From NCBI GenBank assembly GCA_016873275.1, contig VGXO01000001.1, positions 1-61,677 on the forward strand: 61,677 nt of DNA. Reading direction: 5' to 3'. The position numbers and the translations under genes are program-made. The notes beneath the pieces are model-generated. The model did no database searches, was not told the DNA's origin, and was given only the letters and a program-made list of their open reading frames with translations. Positions within the stretch are counted from its first letter, which is position 1, and each line of letters begins with the position of its first letter. Shown one piece after another: positions 51,532 to 61,677 of the stretch. This DNA comes from Phycisphaerae bacterium (GTDB lineage: Bacteria > Planctomycetota > Phycisphaerae > Phycisphaerales > SM1A02).

Positions 51532-52593
51532 TCAGGGCTTGCAGTTGCCCCACGCGGCGAGGAGCACCACGAGGTCCGCGCCCTCGACGACGCCGTCGTT
51601 GTTGAGGTCCGCGGCGACGGGGATCCCGACGCCGGAGAAGCCCCAGAAGCCGAGCATCACGCTGACGTCGGCGCCCTCGACGACTCCGTTGTTGTTGAGA
51701 TCGCCTGGGCAGCCCTCGCAGAAGACGTTCTTGCCGCCGTCGACGTACGCGCCGACGTAGGGCGAGGGGGCGTTGCCGCACACCTCGGTGTCGACGAGGA
51801 CGAGGTCGTCGAAGCCCGGACGCACCCAGAAGCCGCCGGCAACGTCGCCGATGTTGTTCTTGATCTCGCAGCCGTTGAGCGTCGCGGAGCCGCCGGTCGG
51901 GTAGTAGGTCAGACCGCCGCCGATGTTCGCGGTGTTGTTCGAGATCACGCAGTCGATGAGCGTGGCGCTGCCCTGCGCCACGTGCAGCCCGCCGCCGTGG
52001 GAGTTGAGCGCCTTGTTGTAGGTGAAGCTGCAGTTCTCGAAGGTGGGATTGCCGCCGAAGGTCTGCGCGCCGCCGCCGTCCGCGGACACCTGGTTCTGGT
52101 GAAACACGCAGTCGCGGATGATCGAGTCGCTCAGATAGATGTAGGCGCCGCCGCCATACGCCGACGCGTTGTGCAGGAAGCGGCAGTCCTCGATGGTCGG
52201 GCTCGAGTTCAGCACCGCGATCCCGCCGCCGACGCGGATGAGTGGCGCCAGCGGCAGGGGGGTGCCGGTGATCCCATGCTGGATCGTGAAGCCCTCGAGC
52301 CGCGCGGTCGCGGGCTCTCCGGACATGCAGCGGACCACCGAGGTCGTGAGGCCGGTGCCGTTGATGAAGGTCGAGAGCGGACCGCTGACCGACCTCACCA
52401 CGATGTCCTTGCCGAGGAAGTCGATGCCCTCGAAGTAGGTCCCCTTCGAGACGAGGACCTCGTCGCCGGCGACGGCCGCGTCGATGGCGGCTTGGATGGT
52501 CGGAAACTCCCCGGGAACCTCGAGGATGTCGGCCGCGGCGAGCGATGCCGTCGCCCCGACGAACGAGATCGCGATCACGTTGCTGGTCTTCAT
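51532..52593 (-). CDS. Secreted right-handed beta-helix protein with dockerin-like tail
   Basis: 353 residues. Signal peptide (MKTSNVIAISFVGATASLAA, cut before ADI). Then FPTIQAAIDAAVAGDEVLV and a run of parallel beta-helix coils (SSPTIEDCRFLHNASAYGGG, NPTFENCSFTYNKALNSHGG, SATLIDCVISNNTANIGGG) of the polymorphic outer membrane kind. The C-terminus (about 297-353) has two EF-hand loops, DLNNNGVVEGAD and DLNNDGVVEGAD, ending WGNCKP. ATG at 52593 has a GAGAGGTG site. Probably an exported surface protein; carbohydrate or adhesion role is inferred from the fold. Confidence 0.88.
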   Translation of the reverse strand: MKTSNVIAISFVGATASLAAADILEVPGEFPTIQAAIDAAVAGDEVLVSKGTYFEGIDFLGKDIVVRSVSGPLSTFINGTGLTTSVVRCMSGEPATARLEGFTIQHGITGTPLPLAPLIRVGGGIAVLNSSPTIEDCRFLHNASAYGGGAYIYLSDSIIRDCVFHQNQVSADGGGAQTFGGNPTFENCSFTYNKALNSHGGGLHVAQGSATLIDCVISNNTANIGGGLTYYPTGGSATLNGCEIKNNIGDVAGGFWVRPGFDDLVLVDTEVCGNAPSPYVGAYVDGGKNVFCEGCPGDLNNNGVVEGADVSVMLGFWGFSGVGIPVAADLNNDGVVEGADLVVLLAAWGNCKP

Positions 52594-52781
52594 GTCGTCA
52601 CCTCTCCGATGTTCGGACGATCGCCGCGGGGAAACGCTTCCCCCGCCGCGCGGACGGTACCATCGCTCCCGCGGAGCCCGCGCGGGCGTCGATGAAAACT
52701 CCGCGAGAAGCAGGTGCCTACCCGAGCATGGTCCGGGAACCCGCGGATCGCGACGGACGCCCGCCAAGCACGCCACCCCCC

Positions 52782-53894: not shown

Positions 53895-55274
53895 TCAGCG
53901 ACGCGCGCCCCCGCGCAGCTCCGAGACCTCGCGGCGACCAAGCAGCCCGACGACCACCAGCCATCCGGCAAGGAAGACCGCGAGCCGCGCCGCCGCGCCC
54001 GTGATCGAGTCCGCAGGATGACCCGCGAGCCGACCGGCGACCTCGGCGAGGACGAGGAGCACGACCGCGGGCATCACGAACGCGGCGCACCAGCGGAGCG
54101 GCGGGATCCATCCGACGCCCGCGACGGCGCCGGACGCGGCGAGGTGCATCGCGCCGGCGAGGATCCGCTGCACGCCGACCACGGCGGCGACGATGGCGAG
54201 GTCCTCGCCCGCGAGGGCGATCGCCGCGAGGATCGCGCCGACGAGCGTCGCGCCCTCGACCGCCTCGAGCGCCGCCCGCAGGCGCCATCGCCCCGTCGCC
54301 TCGACGGTCGCGGCGCTCACGAGCGCCGGACCCCGCACGAGGATCGATGCGGCGACCGCCTGCGCGACCACGATCGAGCCGTCCCACTTGCCGCCCCACG
54401 CGACGTGGATCAGCGCCGGCGCCGCGAGGCATCCAAGCGCCGCGGCGGGCGCGACGACGAACGACGCAAGGCGCACGCTGCGGCGGAGCGCGTCGACCAG
54501 GCGCGCTGGATCATGCGCAAGCCGCGCGACCGCCGGCAGCAGCACGCCATAGGCGCCGCCGGTGACGAGCAGCATCCCGGACGCCGCGAGCTGGAAGCCG
54601 AAGAAGTAGTCCGCAAGCAGCGGCTCCGCGGCGATCCCGAGGACGAGGTAGTCGCCGCGAAGGACGATCGCCCCGAACATCGCCGAGAGCATGATCCAGC
54701 GGCTCGTGCGGAGGACCGCGGCGACCGATCGCGGGTTCGCGCCACGCAGCGAGAACCCGCGTCCGGCGCCACGCCACAGCAGCAGCAGTCCCTCCAGGAG
54801 CGTGCCCACGAGGATCGGAAGCGCGAAGGAGAGCCCGCCGAATCCCGCGGCGGCCGACGCCACGGTGAGCCCGCCCCGCACGACGACCAGTCCCGCCTCG
54901 ATGCCGGACGCCGCCCGGAATCGGAGGTCGACCTGCAGCCGGGTCCGAAGCACCGCGACCGGCGCGGTGACGATCACGTTCGCCGCAAGCACCAGCGCGA
55001 TCGGACGGACGCCCGCGGTGCCGAAGATGGAGGGTGAGGCGAGGGCGAGCGCCGCGAGGATCGCCGCCGAGAGCGCCGCGAAGAGGAGGGCAAGCACCGT
55101 GGCGGGACCGACGAGCTCCGCGTAGCGCTCCGGCTGCTGCCGCAGGAGCTTCTGCACGCCGCCATCGACGAGGGCGGAGGTGAACACCGTCAGCGAGAGC
55201 GCCATCCCGAAGAGGGCGAAGTCCTCGGGGACGAGGAGCCAGCCGAGGGCGAACTGCACGACGAGCCCGACCAT
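53895..55274 (-). CDS. Oligosaccharide flippase (Wzx-type), copy 1
   Basis: 459 residues from ATG 55274, with about 12-14 transmembrane helices. Motifs shared with the neighbour: VPEDFALFGMALSLTVFTSALVDGGVQKLL (first 20 residues: VPEDFALFGMALSLTVFTSA), RGDYLVLGIAAEPLLADYFF and AWGGKWDGSIVVAQAVAASI. MATE-like polysaccharide exporters move lipid-linked glycans across the membrane. The first helix is shortened at this ATG: 27 residues upstream in the same frame (ending AGWSGLVAAGSKM) still match the paralogue's N-terminus, with a GGAGGA site before a CTG at 55355, so the real start is probably CTG. Confidence 0.88.
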   Translation of the reverse strand: MVGLVVQFALGWLLVPEDFALFGMALSLTVFTSALVDGGVQKLLRQQPERYAELVGPATVLALLFAALSAAILAALALASPSIFGTAGVRPIALVLAANVIVTAPVAVLRTRLQVDLRFRAASGIEAGLVVVRGGLTVASAAAGFGGLSFALPILVGTLLEGLLLLWRGAGRGFSLRGANPRSVAAVLRTSRWIMLSAMFGAIVLRGDYLVLGIAAEPLLADYFFGFQLAASGMLLVTGGAYGVLLPAVARLAHDPARLVDALRRSVRLASFVVAPAAALGCLAAPALIHVAWGGKWDGSIVVAQAVAASILVRGPALVSAATVEATGRWRLRAALEAVEGATLVGAILAAIALAGEDLAIVAAVVGVQRILAGAMHLAASGAVAGVGWIPPLRWCAAFVMPAVVLLVLAEVAGRLAGHPADSITGAAARLAVFLAGWLVVVGLLGRREVSELRGGARR

Positions 55275-55401
55275 CTTGGAGCCGGCGGCGACGAGCCCGC
55301 TCCAGCCGGCGCCGGCGAGCGTCGCGCGACGCAGCGATGAAGGGGGCGCGTTCAGGGCAGGGGTCCTCCGCGGACGAGGGGCTCGTCGCTCGGTCGACGG
55401 T

Positions 55402-56874
55402 TCATCGACGCGACGTCGCGAGCGCCGCGAACTCCCGCAGCTCCCGGCGGGCGGGAACGCCGAGGATCGCGGCCCACGCGACCGCGAAGATCACGACCTC
55501 CGCCGCCGCCGCGGCGAGCCCGCCGGAGGGGACGCCGAGGAGCGGCGTCGCGCCCCGCGCGATCGCCCACGCCGCCGCGGTTCCCGCGCCGACGAGGAGC
55601 GTCCAGCCGAGGACGCGCCACGCCCCGGCGCCGACCGCCCGCGCCGCGACCTCGAGCCGCACGATCCCGATCGCGGTCTGCTGCACGCCGACGAGGAGGG
55701 CGAGCACCGACAGGTCCTCGGGACGCAGGATCTCGGCGGCGAGCACCGCGGCGACGAGCGACGCGCCCTCCACGAACGAGAGCCCGAGCAGCAGGCGCCA
55801 GCGACCAAGACCCTCGAGGGTCATGTCGCTCGCGATCGCGACGCCGCGGATGGCAAAGGCGTAGGCGATCGCCTGGGCGATCGGGATCGACCCGTCCCAC
55901 CGACCTCCCCAGAGGAGGTGGATCAGCGCCGGCGTCACCAGCGCGAGCGCCACGCCGCTCGGAAGGATCGTCCAGGCGGCGAATCGCTGCACCCGCGCGA
56001 ACGTCGCGGCGACCCGCGCGGGATCCGCCGCGATGCGACCGATCACCGAAGGCAGCACGCCCGCGGCGGCGCCGGTCACGAGCTGCATCGTCGAGGCGGA
56101 GAACTGGAAGCCGAAGTAGTAGAGCCCGAGGATCCACGGCGCGACGAGGCTGAGGACGAGGTAGTCGCCGCGGCGGGCAAGCAGCGACCCGACCTGCGCG
56201 ACCATGATCGGGGTGGTCGAGCGGAGCAGCGCGAGGGCGTCGGCGATCCTCGCCCCGCGCATCGACCACTGCCGGAGCCCGCCGACCGACGCGAAGGCGA
56301 CGACCTCGACGACCGCCCCGAGCGCGAGCGGCGCGATCAGGGACATCGCCCCGAAGCCGGCCCATGCGAGCCCGACCGCGAGCGCCGCCCGACCGACCAC
56401 GAGCGAGGTGTCCACCACCGCCATCGGACCGAAGCGGAGGTCGACGTCGAGCCTCGCGCGGAGCACCGCGATCGGTCCCTGCAGGAGGCAGTAGGCGCCC
56501 ATCGCGAGGAGCGGCAGGCGCATCGGGCCTTCCTCGTAGATCCACGGCGAGGCGAGCGCGAGCGCGACCATCACGAGTCCGCCGACCAGCGATCCGCCGA
56601 CGGCAAGCAGCGTCGCCGACCCGATCACCGCGACGAACCGCCGCTGGTTCGCCCGCAGGAACTTGTGCACGCCGCCATCCTGGATCGCCTCGGTCAGGAC
56701 GGTCGCGCCGAGCGCGGCGCCGTAGACCGCGAAGTCCTGCTCGACGAGCATCCAGCCGAGGACGAACTGCATCGCGAGGGTGGTGAGCTTGCCAACGAGG
56801 GACGCGACCGCGTACCACGCGGCGCCGCGCGCCGTCGAGCGACCGAGCGGAGCTTCGACGTCTCCGGCGCTCAC
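55402..56874 (-). CDS. Oligosaccharide flippase (Wzx-type), copy 2
   Basis: 490 residues with about 14 transmembrane helices. Starts GTG at 56874 (VSAGDVEAPLGRSTARGAAW), overlapping the stop of the upstream glycosyltransferase by GTGA. The first helix VASLVGKLTTLAMQFVLGWM is followed by EQDFAVYGAALGATVLTEAI, RRGDYLVLSLVAPWILGLYY and GGRWDGSIPIAQAIAYAFA, the same pattern as copy 1. It probably flips a lipid-linked glycan. The two paralogues may serve two glycans. Confidence 0.9.
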   Translation of the reverse strand: MSAGDVEAPLGRSTARGAAWYAVASLVGKLTTLAMQFVLGWMLVEQDFAVYGAALGATVLTEAIQDGGVHKFLRANQRRFVAVIGSATLLAVGGSLVGGLVMVALALASPWIYEEGPMRLPLLAMGAYCLLQGPIAVLRARLDVDLRFGPMAVVDTSLVVGRAALAVGLAWAGFGAMSLIAPLALGAVVEVVAFASVGGLRQWSMRGARIADALALLRSTTPIMVAQVGSLLARRGDYLVLSLVAPWILGLYYFGFQFSASTMQLVTGAAAGVLPSVIGRIAADPARVAATFARVQRFAAWTILPSGVALALVTPALIHLLWGGRWDGSIPIAQAIAYAFAIRGVAIASDMTLEGLGRWRLLLGLSFVEGASLVAAVLAAEILRPEDLSVLALLVGVQQTAIGIVRLEVAARAVGAGAWRVLGWTLLVGAGTAAAWAIARGATPLLGVPSGGLAAAAAEVVIFAVAWAAILGVPARRELREFAALATSRR

Positions 56875-58076
56875 CGTGCGACTCCCGCCGCGGCGAGCCG
56901 GCGCCGCCACGCGTCGAGGCTCGCGCGGGCAGCGACCTCCCAGGCGTATCGCTTGCGCACGATCGCCGCCCCGCGGGCGCCCATCGCCGCGCGGAGCGTG
57001 TCGTCCGCCAGGATCCGCCCGATCGCCTCCGCGAGCCGACGCTCGTCGGAGGGGACGACCAGACCGGCGCCCGCCTCCGAGATCTCGGGGAAGTTGCATC
57101 CCTCCGTCGCGACCACCGCGCGACCTGCCGCCATCGCCTCGAGGAGCGCGACGCTGAACGCCTCCTGCCGGCTCGGCAGCACGAAGACCTCCGCCGCGCC
57201 GAGCGCCGCGAGCTTCTCCTCGCCGAGGAGCGGACCGACGACGTGGACGCGGGGCGCCGCCGCCGTCGCCGCGATCGCGGCGCGGAAGGACTGCTCCGCC
57301 CCCGCGTCCGGTCCGGCGACGACGAGATGGACGTCGGGACGCGCGGCGGCGACGCGGGCGAACGCCGGCGCGAGCACGTCGAGTCCCTTGCCCGGATGCA
57401 GCCTGGACAAGAAGAGGACGAAGGGCGCGCCCGCGAGCGCCGGCACGCGGCGCTCGAGCACCGCGCGATCGACCCGACGCTCGAGCTCCTCGACGACGAC
57501 GCCGTTGGGCACGACCTCGATCGGCACGGGAAGACCGAGAAGCTCCACGCCCCGGCGCTCCTGCTCGTTGAGGACCTGCAGGAAGAGCGCCCGCTCGAGG
57601 ATCCGGCGGTGGACGAGGCGCATCGAGATCGACTTCTTGAGCCGCTTCTGGGCGAGCGCCCATGGTCCGAGCACGCCATGCGGCTGGACGAGGTAGGGGA
57701 TGCCGAGTCGCCTCGATCGCCACGCCGCGGCGGCGATCGCCGGCTCCCAGAGCATGTGCAGGTGGACGGCGTCGACGGTGCCCGCAGCGATGGGGTGCGG
57801 TCGCCCGCGCGAGCCGAGGAGCGAGGGCAGCTCGACCCGCCTCGCCCGCGGACCGCCGGGGAGCGCCTCGGCGGCGCGGCGGAGGACCTGCTCGACATCT
57901 CCGCCATGGCGACCGTGGGCGACCGTCACCTCGGCGCCGAGCCTCGCCTGCGCCTCGGCGAGGCGCAGGACGACCTGCGGCGGCCCGCCCTGCGCCGGAT
58001 CGAGCGACGCGAGGACGTGCACGATCCGAAGGGGTCGCGGCGTGTCGGGCTCTCCCAGCATGGATCCAGCCATCAT
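56871..58076 (-). CDS. Glycosyltransferase family 4
   Basis: 401 residues, GT-B fold. VHVLASLDPAQGGPPQVVLR near the start, donor-site FVLFLSRLHPGKGLDVLAPA (near 218), VVAGPDAGAEQSFRAA and the E-x7-E motif in EAFSVALLEAMAAGRAVVAT. ATG at 58076 overlaps the stop of the ligase gene by ATGA, so the two are coupled. A second ATG three bases later is also possible. Likely adds a sugar to the glycan exported by the flippase genes that follow. Confidence 0.9.
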   Translation of the reverse strand: MMAGSMLGEPDTPRPLRIVHVLASLDPAQGGPPQVVLRLAEAQARLGAEVTVAHGRHGGDVEQVLRRAAEALPGGPRARRVELPSLLGSRGRPHPIAAGTVDAVHLHMLWEPAIAAAAWRSRRLGIPYLVQPHGVLGPWALAQKRLKKSISMRLVHRRILERALFLQVLNEQERRGVELLGLPVPIEVVPNGVVVEELERRVDRAVLERRVPALAGAPFVLFLSRLHPGKGLDVLAPAFARVAAARPDVHLVVAGPDAGAEQSFRAAIAATAAAPRVHVVGPLLGEEKLAALGAAEVFVLPSRQEAFSVALLEAMAAGRAVVATEGCNFPEISEAGAGLVVPSDERRLAEAIGRILADDTLRAAMGARGAAIVRKRYAWEVAARASLDAWRRRLAAAGVAR

Positions 58077-59410
58077 CGACCGGCGAGCATCGGCACCCTC
58101 GCCGATTCGACGTCGACGGAGGCGCCCTCCGGCGGCATCGGCTCCTCGGGACGGGAGAAGTACTCCCGGTGGAGCCGCCCGATCAGGATCAGGAGCCCGA
58201 AGAGGAGCGGCGTCCCGAGCATGCTGCCCTGCTTGTTGGAGAGGAGCAGGTAGTAGAGGGTGATCGCGAGGATCACCGAGAGGTCGATGCGGGAGGAGTG
58301 GTCGTGGCGGACGGCGACGAAGAGGTCGCGTCCCTGGCGCCATCCAAGGACGAGCACCGTGCCGAGGATCGCGGCGCCGATGATGCCCGCCTCCGCGAGC
58401 GCGTCGGCGAGGAGCACGTGCGAGTAGTCGTCTCCCGAGCGGGTGTCGAGCTCGCGGAACGCCGAGACGCCAAGCCCCTGCACCCAGTGTCCCGGACTCG
58501 AGAGGTACGCGGCGAAGAGATCGACGACGTTGTCGAGCCGACCGGCGCCGCCGAAGACGAGGCTCTGGGCGTCCCAGCGGTCGTCGTTGCGCCAGGAGAT
58601 GAAGAGCGATGCGGCGAACATCATCCCGACCACCACCACCACCGCCGCGGCGGTGGTCAGCACGAAGCCGCGGAGGTTGCTGACGCGGTAGGCGAGGGGG
58701 ATCGTCACGATGATGGTCAGGACCGCGAGGACCATCTGTCCGCGCGAGCCGGAGAGGAGCGCGACGCCCGCGCCGATCACCACCGCCGCCACGCGGAGCG
58801 CCACCTGCCAAGGCGTCCAGCGGGTCAGCATGGTGAGCGCCCCGATGATCATGAGGGTGCCGCCGAGCGTCCCGATCTGCAGCGGGTTGGTGCGGTCGCC
58901 GCCGACGAGGCGGATGCTCAGGCGTCCCGCCACGATGTTGAAGTCGGGGCTCAGGATGATCATCAGCCCGATCGCGAGCCCGACGAGGAGCAGCGACTGC
59001 ACGACGGTCCGGAGCTCCTCGATGCGGCAGATCATCATCGGCGCGAGCAGCATCAGGAGGATCCAGTAGGGAAGACCCTGCACCGCGAGGTCGAGCGCCT
59101 CGCCCTCCGCGGGAGACCAGATGGTCGACAGGTATCCCCAGGCGTAGAAGCCCCACGACGCGAGGAACGCGCCCGTGAAGAGATGGATCACCGGCGACTC
59201 GCCGCCGAGCCAGCGCCGCACGATGCTCAGGAGCGCAAGCCCCGCCACCGCCACGTTGAACGCGAAGGCGTTGTTCAGGAAGTAGGGGACCGTCGCCTGG
59301 AGGAGCATCTCCAGCGGGAACATCATCACCACGACGGCGAATGCCCACGAGGGGCGCCAGAGCGTCGCCGCGAAGAGCACGCATACCAGGATCAGCGGCA
59401 GCAGCGACAT
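58073..59410 (-). CDS. O-antigen ligase/polymerase-type membrane protein
   Basis: 445 residues with roughly 11-12 transmembrane helices and a large periplasmic loop containing GLGVSAFRELDTRSGDDYSH, the Wzy_C/WaaL-like motif that has the catalytic-type His. GSRGQMVLAV is a further family hallmark. It polymerises or ligates lipid-linked oligosaccharide at the periplasmic face. It is the first recognised gene of the four-gene minus-strand glycan set (ligase, GT4, flippase copy 2, flippase copy 1). Confidence 0.87.
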   Translation of the reverse strand: MSLLPLILVCVLFAATLWRPSWAFAVVVMMFPLEMLLQATVPYFLNNAFAFNVAVAGLALLSIVRRWLGGESPVIHLFTGAFLASWGFYAWGYLSTIWSPAEGEALDLAVQGLPYWILLMLLAPMMICRIEELRTVVQSLLLVGLAIGLMIILSPDFNIVAGRLSIRLVGGDRTNPLQIGTLGGTLMIIGALTMLTRWTPWQVALRVAAVVIGAGVALLSGSRGQMVLAVLTIIVTIPLAYRVSNLRGFVLTTAAAVVVVVGMMFAASLFISWRNDDRWDAQSLVFGGAGRLDNVVDLFAAYLSSPGHWVQGLGVSAFRELDTRSGDDYSHVLLADALAEAGIIGAAILGTVLVLGWRQGRDLFVAVRHDHSSRIDLSVILAITLYYLLLSNKQGSMLGTPLLFGLLILIGRLHREYFSRPEEPMPPEGASVDVESARVPMLAGR

Positions 59411-59447: not shown

Positions 59448-61677
59448 TCAGGGCTGTCCGGACGACGCGCCCCGCTCCTCGGCGACGACGTCCTGGACCT
59501 GCCTGATCCGCGTCGCCCAGCCCGCGAGGAGCTGCTGCCGGACCCCGTCCGACTGCCACGTCGTGGGCGTCGAGCCGAGGATGTCCTGGGCGAACGCCGC
59601 GCGGACCTGCTGCTGCTCGACGTTGCCGGGCTCGTCCGCGTTGGTGGTCAGCCGGGCGTAGAAGCCCGCGGCGGTCCAGATGATGAGCGAGTCTGCGCCG
59701 CCGGCGATCGCCGGCTGGATCTGCTTGGAGCGCACCTGGTCGAGGGGAATGAGGCGGAACTGCCCGCCCGAGCCGCCCGGCGCGAACCACAGGTTCACGA
59801 AGGGCGTCACGGGCCGGTCGGTCCGCGGGGATGCGGCGATCATCGCCTTCGACAGCTCCACGACCCGCTCGTTGCGGAGGCGGGCGTTGTGGGTGCTGTG
59901 CTCGGCGGCGGCGGGCGTCGGGTAGTTCCGCGCGTCGTCGCGGTCGTAGATCGTGGGCGAGACGAAGTCGCACTCGTCCACGATCGCCTGCACCAGCGCG
60001 CGGCGCGCCGCGATGATCTGCTGCAGCTGCGAGTCGGGGATGCTCACGTGCGTGTGGGCGACGCCGCCGACCTGGAACCACGCGGGCAGCGAGGGCAGGC
60101 CGTAGACGCTCCATCGCGCGTTCGGGAACTGGAGCTTCAGCGACTGGAGCGCCGCGACGAACGAGTCGCGGGTGCGGATGTAGTCGGCGTTGTTGGGATC
60201 GGCGAGCCCCTTCGCGAGGTTGTGGAAGTGAGGCACCTCGTAGTCGAGGATGAACCAGCCGGTGGGGTTCGAGCCCCAGTGCTCGATGACCAACGACGCG
60301 ACGTGGCTGGGGTCGATGGTGCCGTCGCCGCAGGTCGGGTCGAAATTCTGGTAGTAGACCCGCGCCGGCGCGGCGCCCTCCGCCATGATCTCCGCGGTGA
60401 GCGTGGGGACGGTGTAGAGCGAGGCGCCCGCGGTCTCGAGCAGCGAGTCGGAGAGGATGAGCGGGATCGGAAGCGGCGGGCGAGGCGACGCGGAGGGAAC
60501 CTCGGGCGGCGCCGGCGGAGGAGGAGGCGCCGTGGGCGGCGTCACCGGCGTGGTCGGATCGACCGGCGGGACGGAGCCCTCGCCCTCGGTCGAGTTCGAA
60601 GTCGAGCCGGACTCGAACTCGTTGGGCAGCACGCCGGTCACGTCGGGCGAAAGCTCGATCGCGACCGTGCCGTCGGTCGTCTTCGGGCGCCCGCCGGGCG
60701 CGCCCGCGAGCTCGATGGTGAGGTCGATGCCGTCGACGCGCCCGTCGCCGTTGAGGTCCTCGATCCCCGAGTTGGTCCAGTTGTTCGCCTCGCGGGCGGC
60801 GAGGTCCATCGTGAGGTCGATGCCGTCGATGCGCCCGTCGCCGTTCAGGTCCTGCCAGCCGGCGTCGCTCCAGGCGCCCTGCCCGGTGCCGCCGCCGAGG
60901 TAGGCGCCCTCCGCCTGCCCGCCGGGCGCGGTGAAGCCAAGGTCCTCGCCGGTCGGGACCGTGGCGATCGTGCCGTCCTGCGTGCGCTCGCCCTCCTTGC
61001 CGGTCACCACGTCCGCCGAGGGACTCCCGTCGCGCGGCGCGAAGTCGTCGTCCGCGACCTCGAAGAACGCGAGGCGCTGGGAGGACTTCTGCCGGAGCCA
61101 CGTCCCGATCGCGCCGCGGTCGCGCTCGAGCCGGCGCGGCTCGCCATCAAGCTCGGCGTCGAGCTGGTTCACGCCGGGCGCGAGCGAGATGCGCCAGAGG
61201 ACCTCCTCCGGCGCGATGGACGCGCCCACCGCGAGGTAGGTTGCGCCCCGGCGGACCTCCACCCGGCGGACCTCCAGGCTCGCGCCCGCGGACTGCCGGG
61301 CGACCTCGTCGAGGACCGCGGCGAGGCGCCGCGCGTCCTCCTCGACCTCGCTGCCGCGCCGGCGCTCGACGCACACGATGCCGGCGGGCGCGATCAACGC
61401 CGCATGACGGACCATCTCGTCCCAGGTGATCGTCCCCGCGATCGCCGACCGCTCGCCCTCCGACGTCGCGACCGAGTAGGGCAGGATCCAGGGCACCACC
61501 CGCCGACCCTCCGCGGCGATCGCGGCAGCGGTCGAGACCTCCTCGGCGAGCGCCATGAACGACGAGGGCGCGAAGCCGGACGCCTCGAACGAGGTCGGCG
61601 CCGCCTGCCCGTAGAGCCGCAGCGCGGAGGCGCCGCCGAACGAGGTCGTCTTGCCCTCCTCGTCGGGTCGGCGCAGC
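59448..61677 (-). CDS. Large secreted protein with internal dockerin-like pair, 5' end outside the window
   Basis: At least 742 residues; the frame is open to the last base, so the N-terminus is missing. From the window edge: a beta/alpha segment (VVPWILPYSVATSEGERSAI, GIVCVERRRGSEVEED), then two EF-hand loops DLNGDGRIDGIDL and DLNGDGRVDGIDL, a Pro-rich linker (VTPPTAPPPPPAPPEVP), and a second domain with TIM-barrel-like strands (TGWFILDYEVPHFHNLAKGL, WSVYGLPSLPAWFQVGG, DFVSPTIYDRDDARNYP, ADSLIIWTAAGFYARL). A glycoside-hydrolase-like fold is inferred, not proven. It ends 37 bp before the ligase gene. Confidence 0.75.
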   Translation of the reverse strand, partial: LRRPDEEGKTTSFGGASALRLYGQAAPTSFEASGFAPSSFMALAEEVSTAAAIAAEGRRVVPWILPYSVATSEGERSAIAGTITWDEMVRHAALIAPAGIVCVERRRGSEVEEDARRLAAVLDEVARQSAGASLEVRRVEVRRGATYLAVGASIAPEEVLWRISLAPGVNQLDAELDGEPRRLERDRGAIGTWLRQKSSQRLAFFEVADDDFAPRDGSPSADVVTGKEGERTQDGTIATVPTGEDLGFTAPGGQAEGAYLGGGTGQGAWSDAGWQDLNGDGRIDGIDLTMDLAAREANNWTNSGIEDLNGDGRVDGIDLTIELAGAPGGRPKTTDGTVAIELSPDVTGVLPNEFESGSTSNSTEGEGSVPPVDPTTPVTPPTAPPPPPAPPEVPSASPRPPLPIPLILSDSLLETAGASLYTVPTLTAEIMAEGAAPARVYYQNFDPTCGDGTIDPSHVASLVIEHWGSNPTGWFILDYEVPHFHNLAKGLADPNNADYIRTRDSFVAALQSLKLQFPNARWSVYGLPSLPAWFQVGGVAHTHVSIPDSQLQQIIAARRALVQAIVDECDFVSPTIYDRDDARNYPTPAAAEHSTHNARLRNERVVELSKAMIAASPRTDRPVTPFVNLWFAPGGSGGQFRLIPLDQVRSKQIQPAIAGGADSLIIWTAAGFYARLTTNADEPGNVEQQQVRAAFAQDILGSTPTTWQSDGVRQQLLAGWATRIRQVQDVVAEERGASSGQP

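Follow-up and report, generated by a model that had tools for sequence, protein, structure and literature searches.

A flippase gene of a Phycisphaerae bacterium that probably starts at a CTG codon overlapping the stop of a mini-ORF

Where does translation begin in a gene whose reading frame runs on well above its first canonical start codon? This question is raised by flippase B, a gene of a Phycisphaerae bacterium in the 61,677-nucleotide stretch of DNA that we analysed (hereafter, the window). An in-frame stop at 55493-55491 bounds the open frame on the upstream side and the gene's own stop, at 53895, on the other, and the 72 codons between the upstream stop and ATG 55274 include no ATG, GTG or TTG. 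CTG 55355 and CTG 55334 are the only NTG codons among them, and there is one ACG (55322). A first-pass annotation had proposed a flippase started from the CTG at 55355, 27 residues above the first ATG at 55274, in a frame lacking ATG, GTG and TTG; these coordinates and codons were borne out by the sequence. The GGAGGA that it had placed nine bases ahead of the CTG is present, with a spacer of eight. A homologous N-terminus upstream of any ATG, GTG or TTG, combined with an in-frame CTG, is one mark of a CTG-initiated gene, and both were found here. The part of the proposal that stands most firmly is a protein start upstream of ATG 55274; CTG 55355 as the initiator, read as fMet and served by GGAGGA, is its best reading, to which we assign a probability of about 0.6, with the alternatives weighed below. 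The features concerned are listed in Table 1.

Table 1. Features of the flippase B locus, in window coordinates
Feature	Position	Strand	Remarks
O-antigen-ligase-like membrane protein (named by eye)	58073..59410	-	Counterpart directly upstream of the G002 flippase
Glycosyltransferase-like gene (named by eye)	56871..58076	-	ATGA overlap with ligase stop
Flippase A, upstream paralogue	55402..56874	-	40% identical; GTG start, GTGA overlap with preceding gene
Mini-ORF, 17 codons, MNRRPSDEPLVRGGPLP	55352..55405	-	ATG overlaps flippase A stop (ATGA); TGA overlaps CTG (CTGA)
GGAGGA, putative Shine-Dalgarno site	55364..55369	-	Spacer of 8 nt to CTG; 16S tail of the genome holds GGATCACCTCCTTTCT
Proposed CTG start codon	55353..55355	-	Overlaps TGA 55354-55352 as CTGA
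Flippase B (predicted MOP-superfamily flippase)	53895..55355	-	486 residues from CTG 55355; open frame, Pfam and PDB fold matches
Second in-frame CTG, alternative start	55332..55334	-	From sequence; lacks a purine-rich stretch at the usual distance
First in-frame ATG	55272..55274	-	Residue 28, within predicted helix 6-40

Homology, family profiles and predicted structure give good support to a protein start upstream of ATG 55274, and codon usage gives weak support. Translated from CTG 55355, flippase B passed the gathering scores of PF13440 (103.4 bits, 1.8e-29; cut-off 23) and PF01943 (40.1 bits, 3.9e-10; cut-off 28.2). The PF01943 score was 32.4 bits from ATG 55274 and rose to the higher value with the extension, whereas that of PF13440 was nearly unchanged (103.6 bits without the extension), because its match starts at residue 40. 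Three NCBIfam flippase models, all scoring below their curated cut-offs and used as alignments only, reached into the extension: position 2 of PRK10459 aligned to residue 7, position 4 of an O-glycosylation Wzx model to residue 6, and position 4 of the TuaB model to residue 8. A fourth NCBIfam row, TIGR01102, had an E value of 0.015 and was taken as chance. Flippase A likewise aligns to flippase B from residue 7 onwards. The resemblance to the paralogue N-terminus noted in the first-pass annotation therefore holds for SLRRAT...AGAGWSGLVAAGSKM; the preceding residues ('NAPPS' or 'APPSS') have no clear match.

An AlphaFold2 model of flippase B, built on a 36-sequence alignment (mean pLDDT 92.1), predicted helix 1 at residues 6-40. 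A start at ATG 55274 would remove 22 of its 35 residues and leave 13, in agreement with the earlier statement that the ATG product lacks the beginning of the first helix and that the CTG restores it. Residues 1-5 have pLDDT values below 50, and the model therefore gives no choice between CTG 55355 and CTG 55334. In Foldseek, the model matched MurJ (6nc6_A, TMq 0.72) and the Wzx-type flippase WzxE (9g9p_A, TMq 0.62), both with E near 3e-6. The predicted structure thus shares its fold with solved MOP flippases, and a MOP-family polysaccharide-precursor flippase is the best explanation of what flippase B may be. Compared with other members of this superfamily (Wzx, TuaB, MurJ), it is the same in fold and family profiles; its start codon alone is unusual.

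A check proposed with the first-pass annotation was whether homologues start at an ATG in this region, and they gave a favourable answer. In 36 of 37 scored homologous loci, a canonical start codon was present 15 or more codons above the residue-28 position, a codon in this position not being proof of a start there. The exception, L020, is cut by a contig end. This count began from 42 loci; three without a tblastn hit were dropped (L025, L026, L027), and another two, L001 and L045, represent the window gene, so that 36 of 39 became 36 of 37 others. Four loci (L005, L017, L020, L030) reached the limit of their stretch. In an alignment of the query, flippase A and 34 of 35 loci (L020 left out), with starts picked by script, none of the 35 other sequences had Met in the residue-28 column. 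The shortest aligned homologues begin, by these script-picked starts, 10-11 residues before the Trp-18 column, that is, at the position of CTG 55334.

Only one close orthologue was found, in genome G002 (54% identical), among 61 genomes including the source genome itself and 181 genomes of the family (E up to 1e-20). It starts at an ATG (11791 of L032) three codons further out than CTG 55355, 30 codons rather than 27 above the residue-28 position. The CTG was read in one genome of the species, and the close orthologue has an ATG instead. The flippase of G001 is 35% identical and lies beside a sulfotransferase-like gene (named by eye) on the other strand. A search of genome contigs for closer orthologues returned one distant Mycobacterium locus, and in a DNA search of three genomes of the genus the initiation region matched itself and otherwise gave short matches only.

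Codon usage was scored with a table trained on contig C1, which comprises the window and five neighbouring stretches. Upstream of the first canonical start, flippase B had the strongest coding signal of the 123 C1 genes: 17 codons and 6.9 bits, with the best onset at 55325, nearer CTG 55334. Over 560 kb it ranked second of 402 genes, and it was one of three with such a signal over at least 15 codons. We therefore rejected coding potential as sole proof of the extension, and homology carries the case. Another of the three, L056, starts in tRNA-adjacent sequence that looks non-coding by eye. Elsewhere in the same genome, L067:2289-3212 (+) has a codon signal of 7.1 bits extending 17 codons upstream of its first canonical start, and outside the window the gene at C1 141150-141572 (-) has one of 10 codons (4.9 bits), with no CTG at the coding onset.

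Within the locus, the stretch 55403-55356 scored -19.2 bits in the flippase frame and so has no coding character, the lower quartile of in-frame upstream sequence on C1 being -12.8. Residues 2-7 had poor codon usage (-5.9 bits; 10 of 123 genes were as low), and residues 9-27 scored +3.8 bits. Taken together, these values place the onset by codon usage at or after 55355, with a slight preference for 55334. The indications for the exact codon would thus diverge, as the putative Shine-Dalgarno site and the orthologue prefer CTG 55355, while codon usage slightly prefers CTG 55334.

In this genome, the 16S gene terminates in GGATCACCTCCTTTCT, a normal anti-Shine-Dalgarno sequence. CTG is common in this DNA (72% GC); counted on both strands of C1, 14 of 3418 CTGs had GGAGGA at a 5-10 base spacer, and 210 of 3420 had any Shine-Dalgarno core before them. 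Such cores preceded 21 of 123 C1 genes, taken at the nearest canonical start, compared with 85 of 1797 internal codons, which indicates that the signal is in use, but by a minority of genes. Predicted RNA structure at the initiation region was ordinary (z -1.13; 23 of 200 shuffles folded as well).

The operon runs from the ligase-like gene through the glycosyltransferase-like gene and flippase A to flippase B. One feature goes beyond the first-pass annotation: CTG 55355 shares bases with the stop of a mini-ORF, and the mini-ORF's ATG (55405), which lies in another frame than flippase B, does so with the stop of the paralogue. The mini-ORF TGA and the CTG form a four-nucleotide stop-start overlap, CTGA, at 55355-55352. 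The codon score of the mini-ORF was -2.7 bits, between the medians of gene starts (5.4) and in-frame upstream sequence (-8.9). A similar arrangement is present in G002, where the stop of the ligase-like gene lies in an ATGA that opens an 8-codon mini-ORF, whose TGA in turn overlaps the flippase ATG as ATGA. The layout is common to both loci; the mini-ORFs differ in sequence and length, so the equivalence of the sites is positional only. Relative to G002, the window has an additional glycosyltransferase-like gene and a second flippase between the ligase-like gene and flippase B (55402-58076), which makes the two flippases a tandem pair.

How unusual this layout is was estimated on C1 by a script; it misplaced at least two gene starts (in the genes with stops 58075 and 101366), so the overlap counts are approximate. 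By this script, 18 of 123 genes start at an ATGA, GTGA or TTGA overlap, a slight undercount. Outside such overlaps, ATGA occurred at 9 of 95 TGA stops; two of these nine lead into reading frames of 401 and 316 codons and are genuine starts that the script misplaced, leaving seven. Among the seven, only the ATGA of flippase A leads to a mini-ORF whose stop coincides with the start proposed for the following gene. At stop 108799, the mini-ORF ends four bases past the following start; the others end at a greater distance or are followed by no gene. The double overlap around the mini-ORF is therefore less common than a single one, but as stray ATGAs at stops are not rare, its first overlap may be a coincidence.

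The putative Shine-Dalgarno site, the fit to the orthologue start and the stop-start overlap together make CTG 55355 the best reading of the start. A possible route to it would be as follows. Ribosomes finishing flippase A would restart at ATG 55405, translate the 17-codon mini-ORF and stop at TGA 55354-55352; GGAGGA would then hold the terminated ribosome so that it reinitiates one base back, at CTG 55355, and this coupling could offset the weakness of the CTG codon. Coupling is reported to depend strongly on very short distances and to fall steeply beyond them, the -4 overlap being the commonest across 1,695 species (PMC10666635); the four-base overlap would thus offer favourable spacing. 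By the same measure, the 47 bases from the flippase A stop to CTG 55355 are too far for direct coupling, a distance that the mini-ORF would bridge. Direct binding at GGAGGA, with no part for the mini-ORF, would yield the same protein, and reinitiation after the mini-ORF probably deserves about half the weight given to the CTG 55355 start. We offer only tentatively the stronger proposal that the mini-ORF is a translational ramp licensing a near-cognate start, and that production of flippase B requires translation of both flippase A and the mini-ORF.

Each component of this arrangement is known already: CTG starts, four-base overlaps and leader peptides. Their occurrence together in flippase B is uncommon. 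Like bacterial CUG-start genes, flippase B would have an NTG read by initiator tRNA, to which it adds a strong Shine-Dalgarno site; the case for it is built on homology and sequence. It shares the four-base stop-start overlap of the coupled ATGA and GTGA pairs described in PMC6728339 and PMC10666635, but its start is CTG and what precedes it is a mini-ORF of 17 codons instead of a full gene. The mini-ORF also resembles the leader genes of PMC4833913, short ORFs just before a structural gene that are proposed there to raise translation from the nearby downstream start. However, the leader genes described in that source do not overlap the downstream gene and peak at 10-11 bp, whereas the mini-ORF overlaps at both ends and lies inside an operon.

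Measurements of CUG initiation count against CTG 55355. In a mycobacterial selection, CTG accounted for 0.03% of the leadered starts recovered and was not enriched (PMC4633059), CUG initiation complexes are described as less stable (PMC11497404), and ancestral AUG to CUG switches were reported in 2 of 61,358 cases (PMC5622118). The last source also describes a tendency of GUG and UUG starts to be compensated by stronger Shine-Dalgarno sites, CUG being too rare for that analysis. PMC12350097, citing Hecht 2017, counts CUG as one of the seven strongest starters in E. coli. If the CTG 55355 reading is right, expression is probably low.

Among the competing explanations, an unlikely one that we take most seriously is that the start was or is ATG 55405 and that an indel between 55405 and 55355 broke the frame. 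Such an indel could be real, in which case the CTG would have rescued a weakened gene, or it could be an error of assembly. The two preceding operon junctions (ATGA and GTGA) do start exactly at the overlap, the assembly is a draft of 136 contigs with an apparently metagenomic origin, and a laboratory frameshift in lambda cI was reported to be rescued by a non-standard start, ACA (PMC6397469). G000 and G002 also have a 10-base word in common near these starts, but words of at least 9 bases shared with the same G002 stretch turned up in 176 of 2000 random C1 stretches, and the words shared upstream of the start were not significant. Further against an indel, the intervening stretch lacks coding character in the flippase frame, with its score of -19.2 bits lying below the lower quartile, and in G002, too, the ATGA is out of frame and a proper start of its own comes after it; the mini-ORF frame score is ambiguous. 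Initiation at CTG 55334, yielding a 479-residue protein that starts near the beginning of helix 1, seems rather improbable: the shortest script-picked homologues and the codon usage onset both point close to it, but it has neither a purine-rich stretch at the usual distance nor a stop-start overlap, and the closest orthologue starts further out.

It is quite improbable that the assembled C at 55355 is wrong and the true codon is ATG, GTG or TTG. The orthologue has ATG in this role, but the 486-codon frame is open throughout, and substitution errors in consensus sequence are rare. A start at ATG 55274, producing a shorter functional protein or marking a decaying gene, is very improbable. It is the first canonical start and the output of any ORF finder limited to ATG, GTG and TTG, but it would cost most of predicted helix 1 at a column where no other aligned sequence has Met, and the coding signal runs on for 17 codons above it. 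Least credible to us is a -1 ribosomal frameshift near the mini-ORF end (CCC TGA, after GGAGGA) that would fuse the mini-ORF to flippase B; the two frames do differ by -1, with a Shine-Dalgarno-like stretch immediately upstream, but no classical slippery heptamer was seen at the mini-ORF end, and the G002 orthologue with its plain ATG needs no frameshift.

We know of no description of a mini-ORF joined to a gene by CTGA; we looked at the literature through related terms and make no claim that this one is unpublished. If ribosomes finishing the mini-ORF do reinitiate at CTG 55355, CTGA would be a fourth coupling junction beside ATGA, GTGA and TTGA, overlooked by gene callers limited to ATG, GTG and TTG. 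At such overlaps, termination would deliver the ribosome, and the start codon would matter less. Flippase B would be a clean example, as such a caller would misplace its start by 27 residues and cut a transmembrane helix. Should CTGA work by reinitiation, further CTG starts could be sought at four-base overlaps with short leader frames.

On either side of the operon, the window encodes proteins with GDLNNNGVVEGADVSVMLGFWG-type repeats (51532-52776 and 59448-61556), which look dockerin-like by eye. The one at 59448-61556 also has an apparent equivalent beside the flippase operon of G002.
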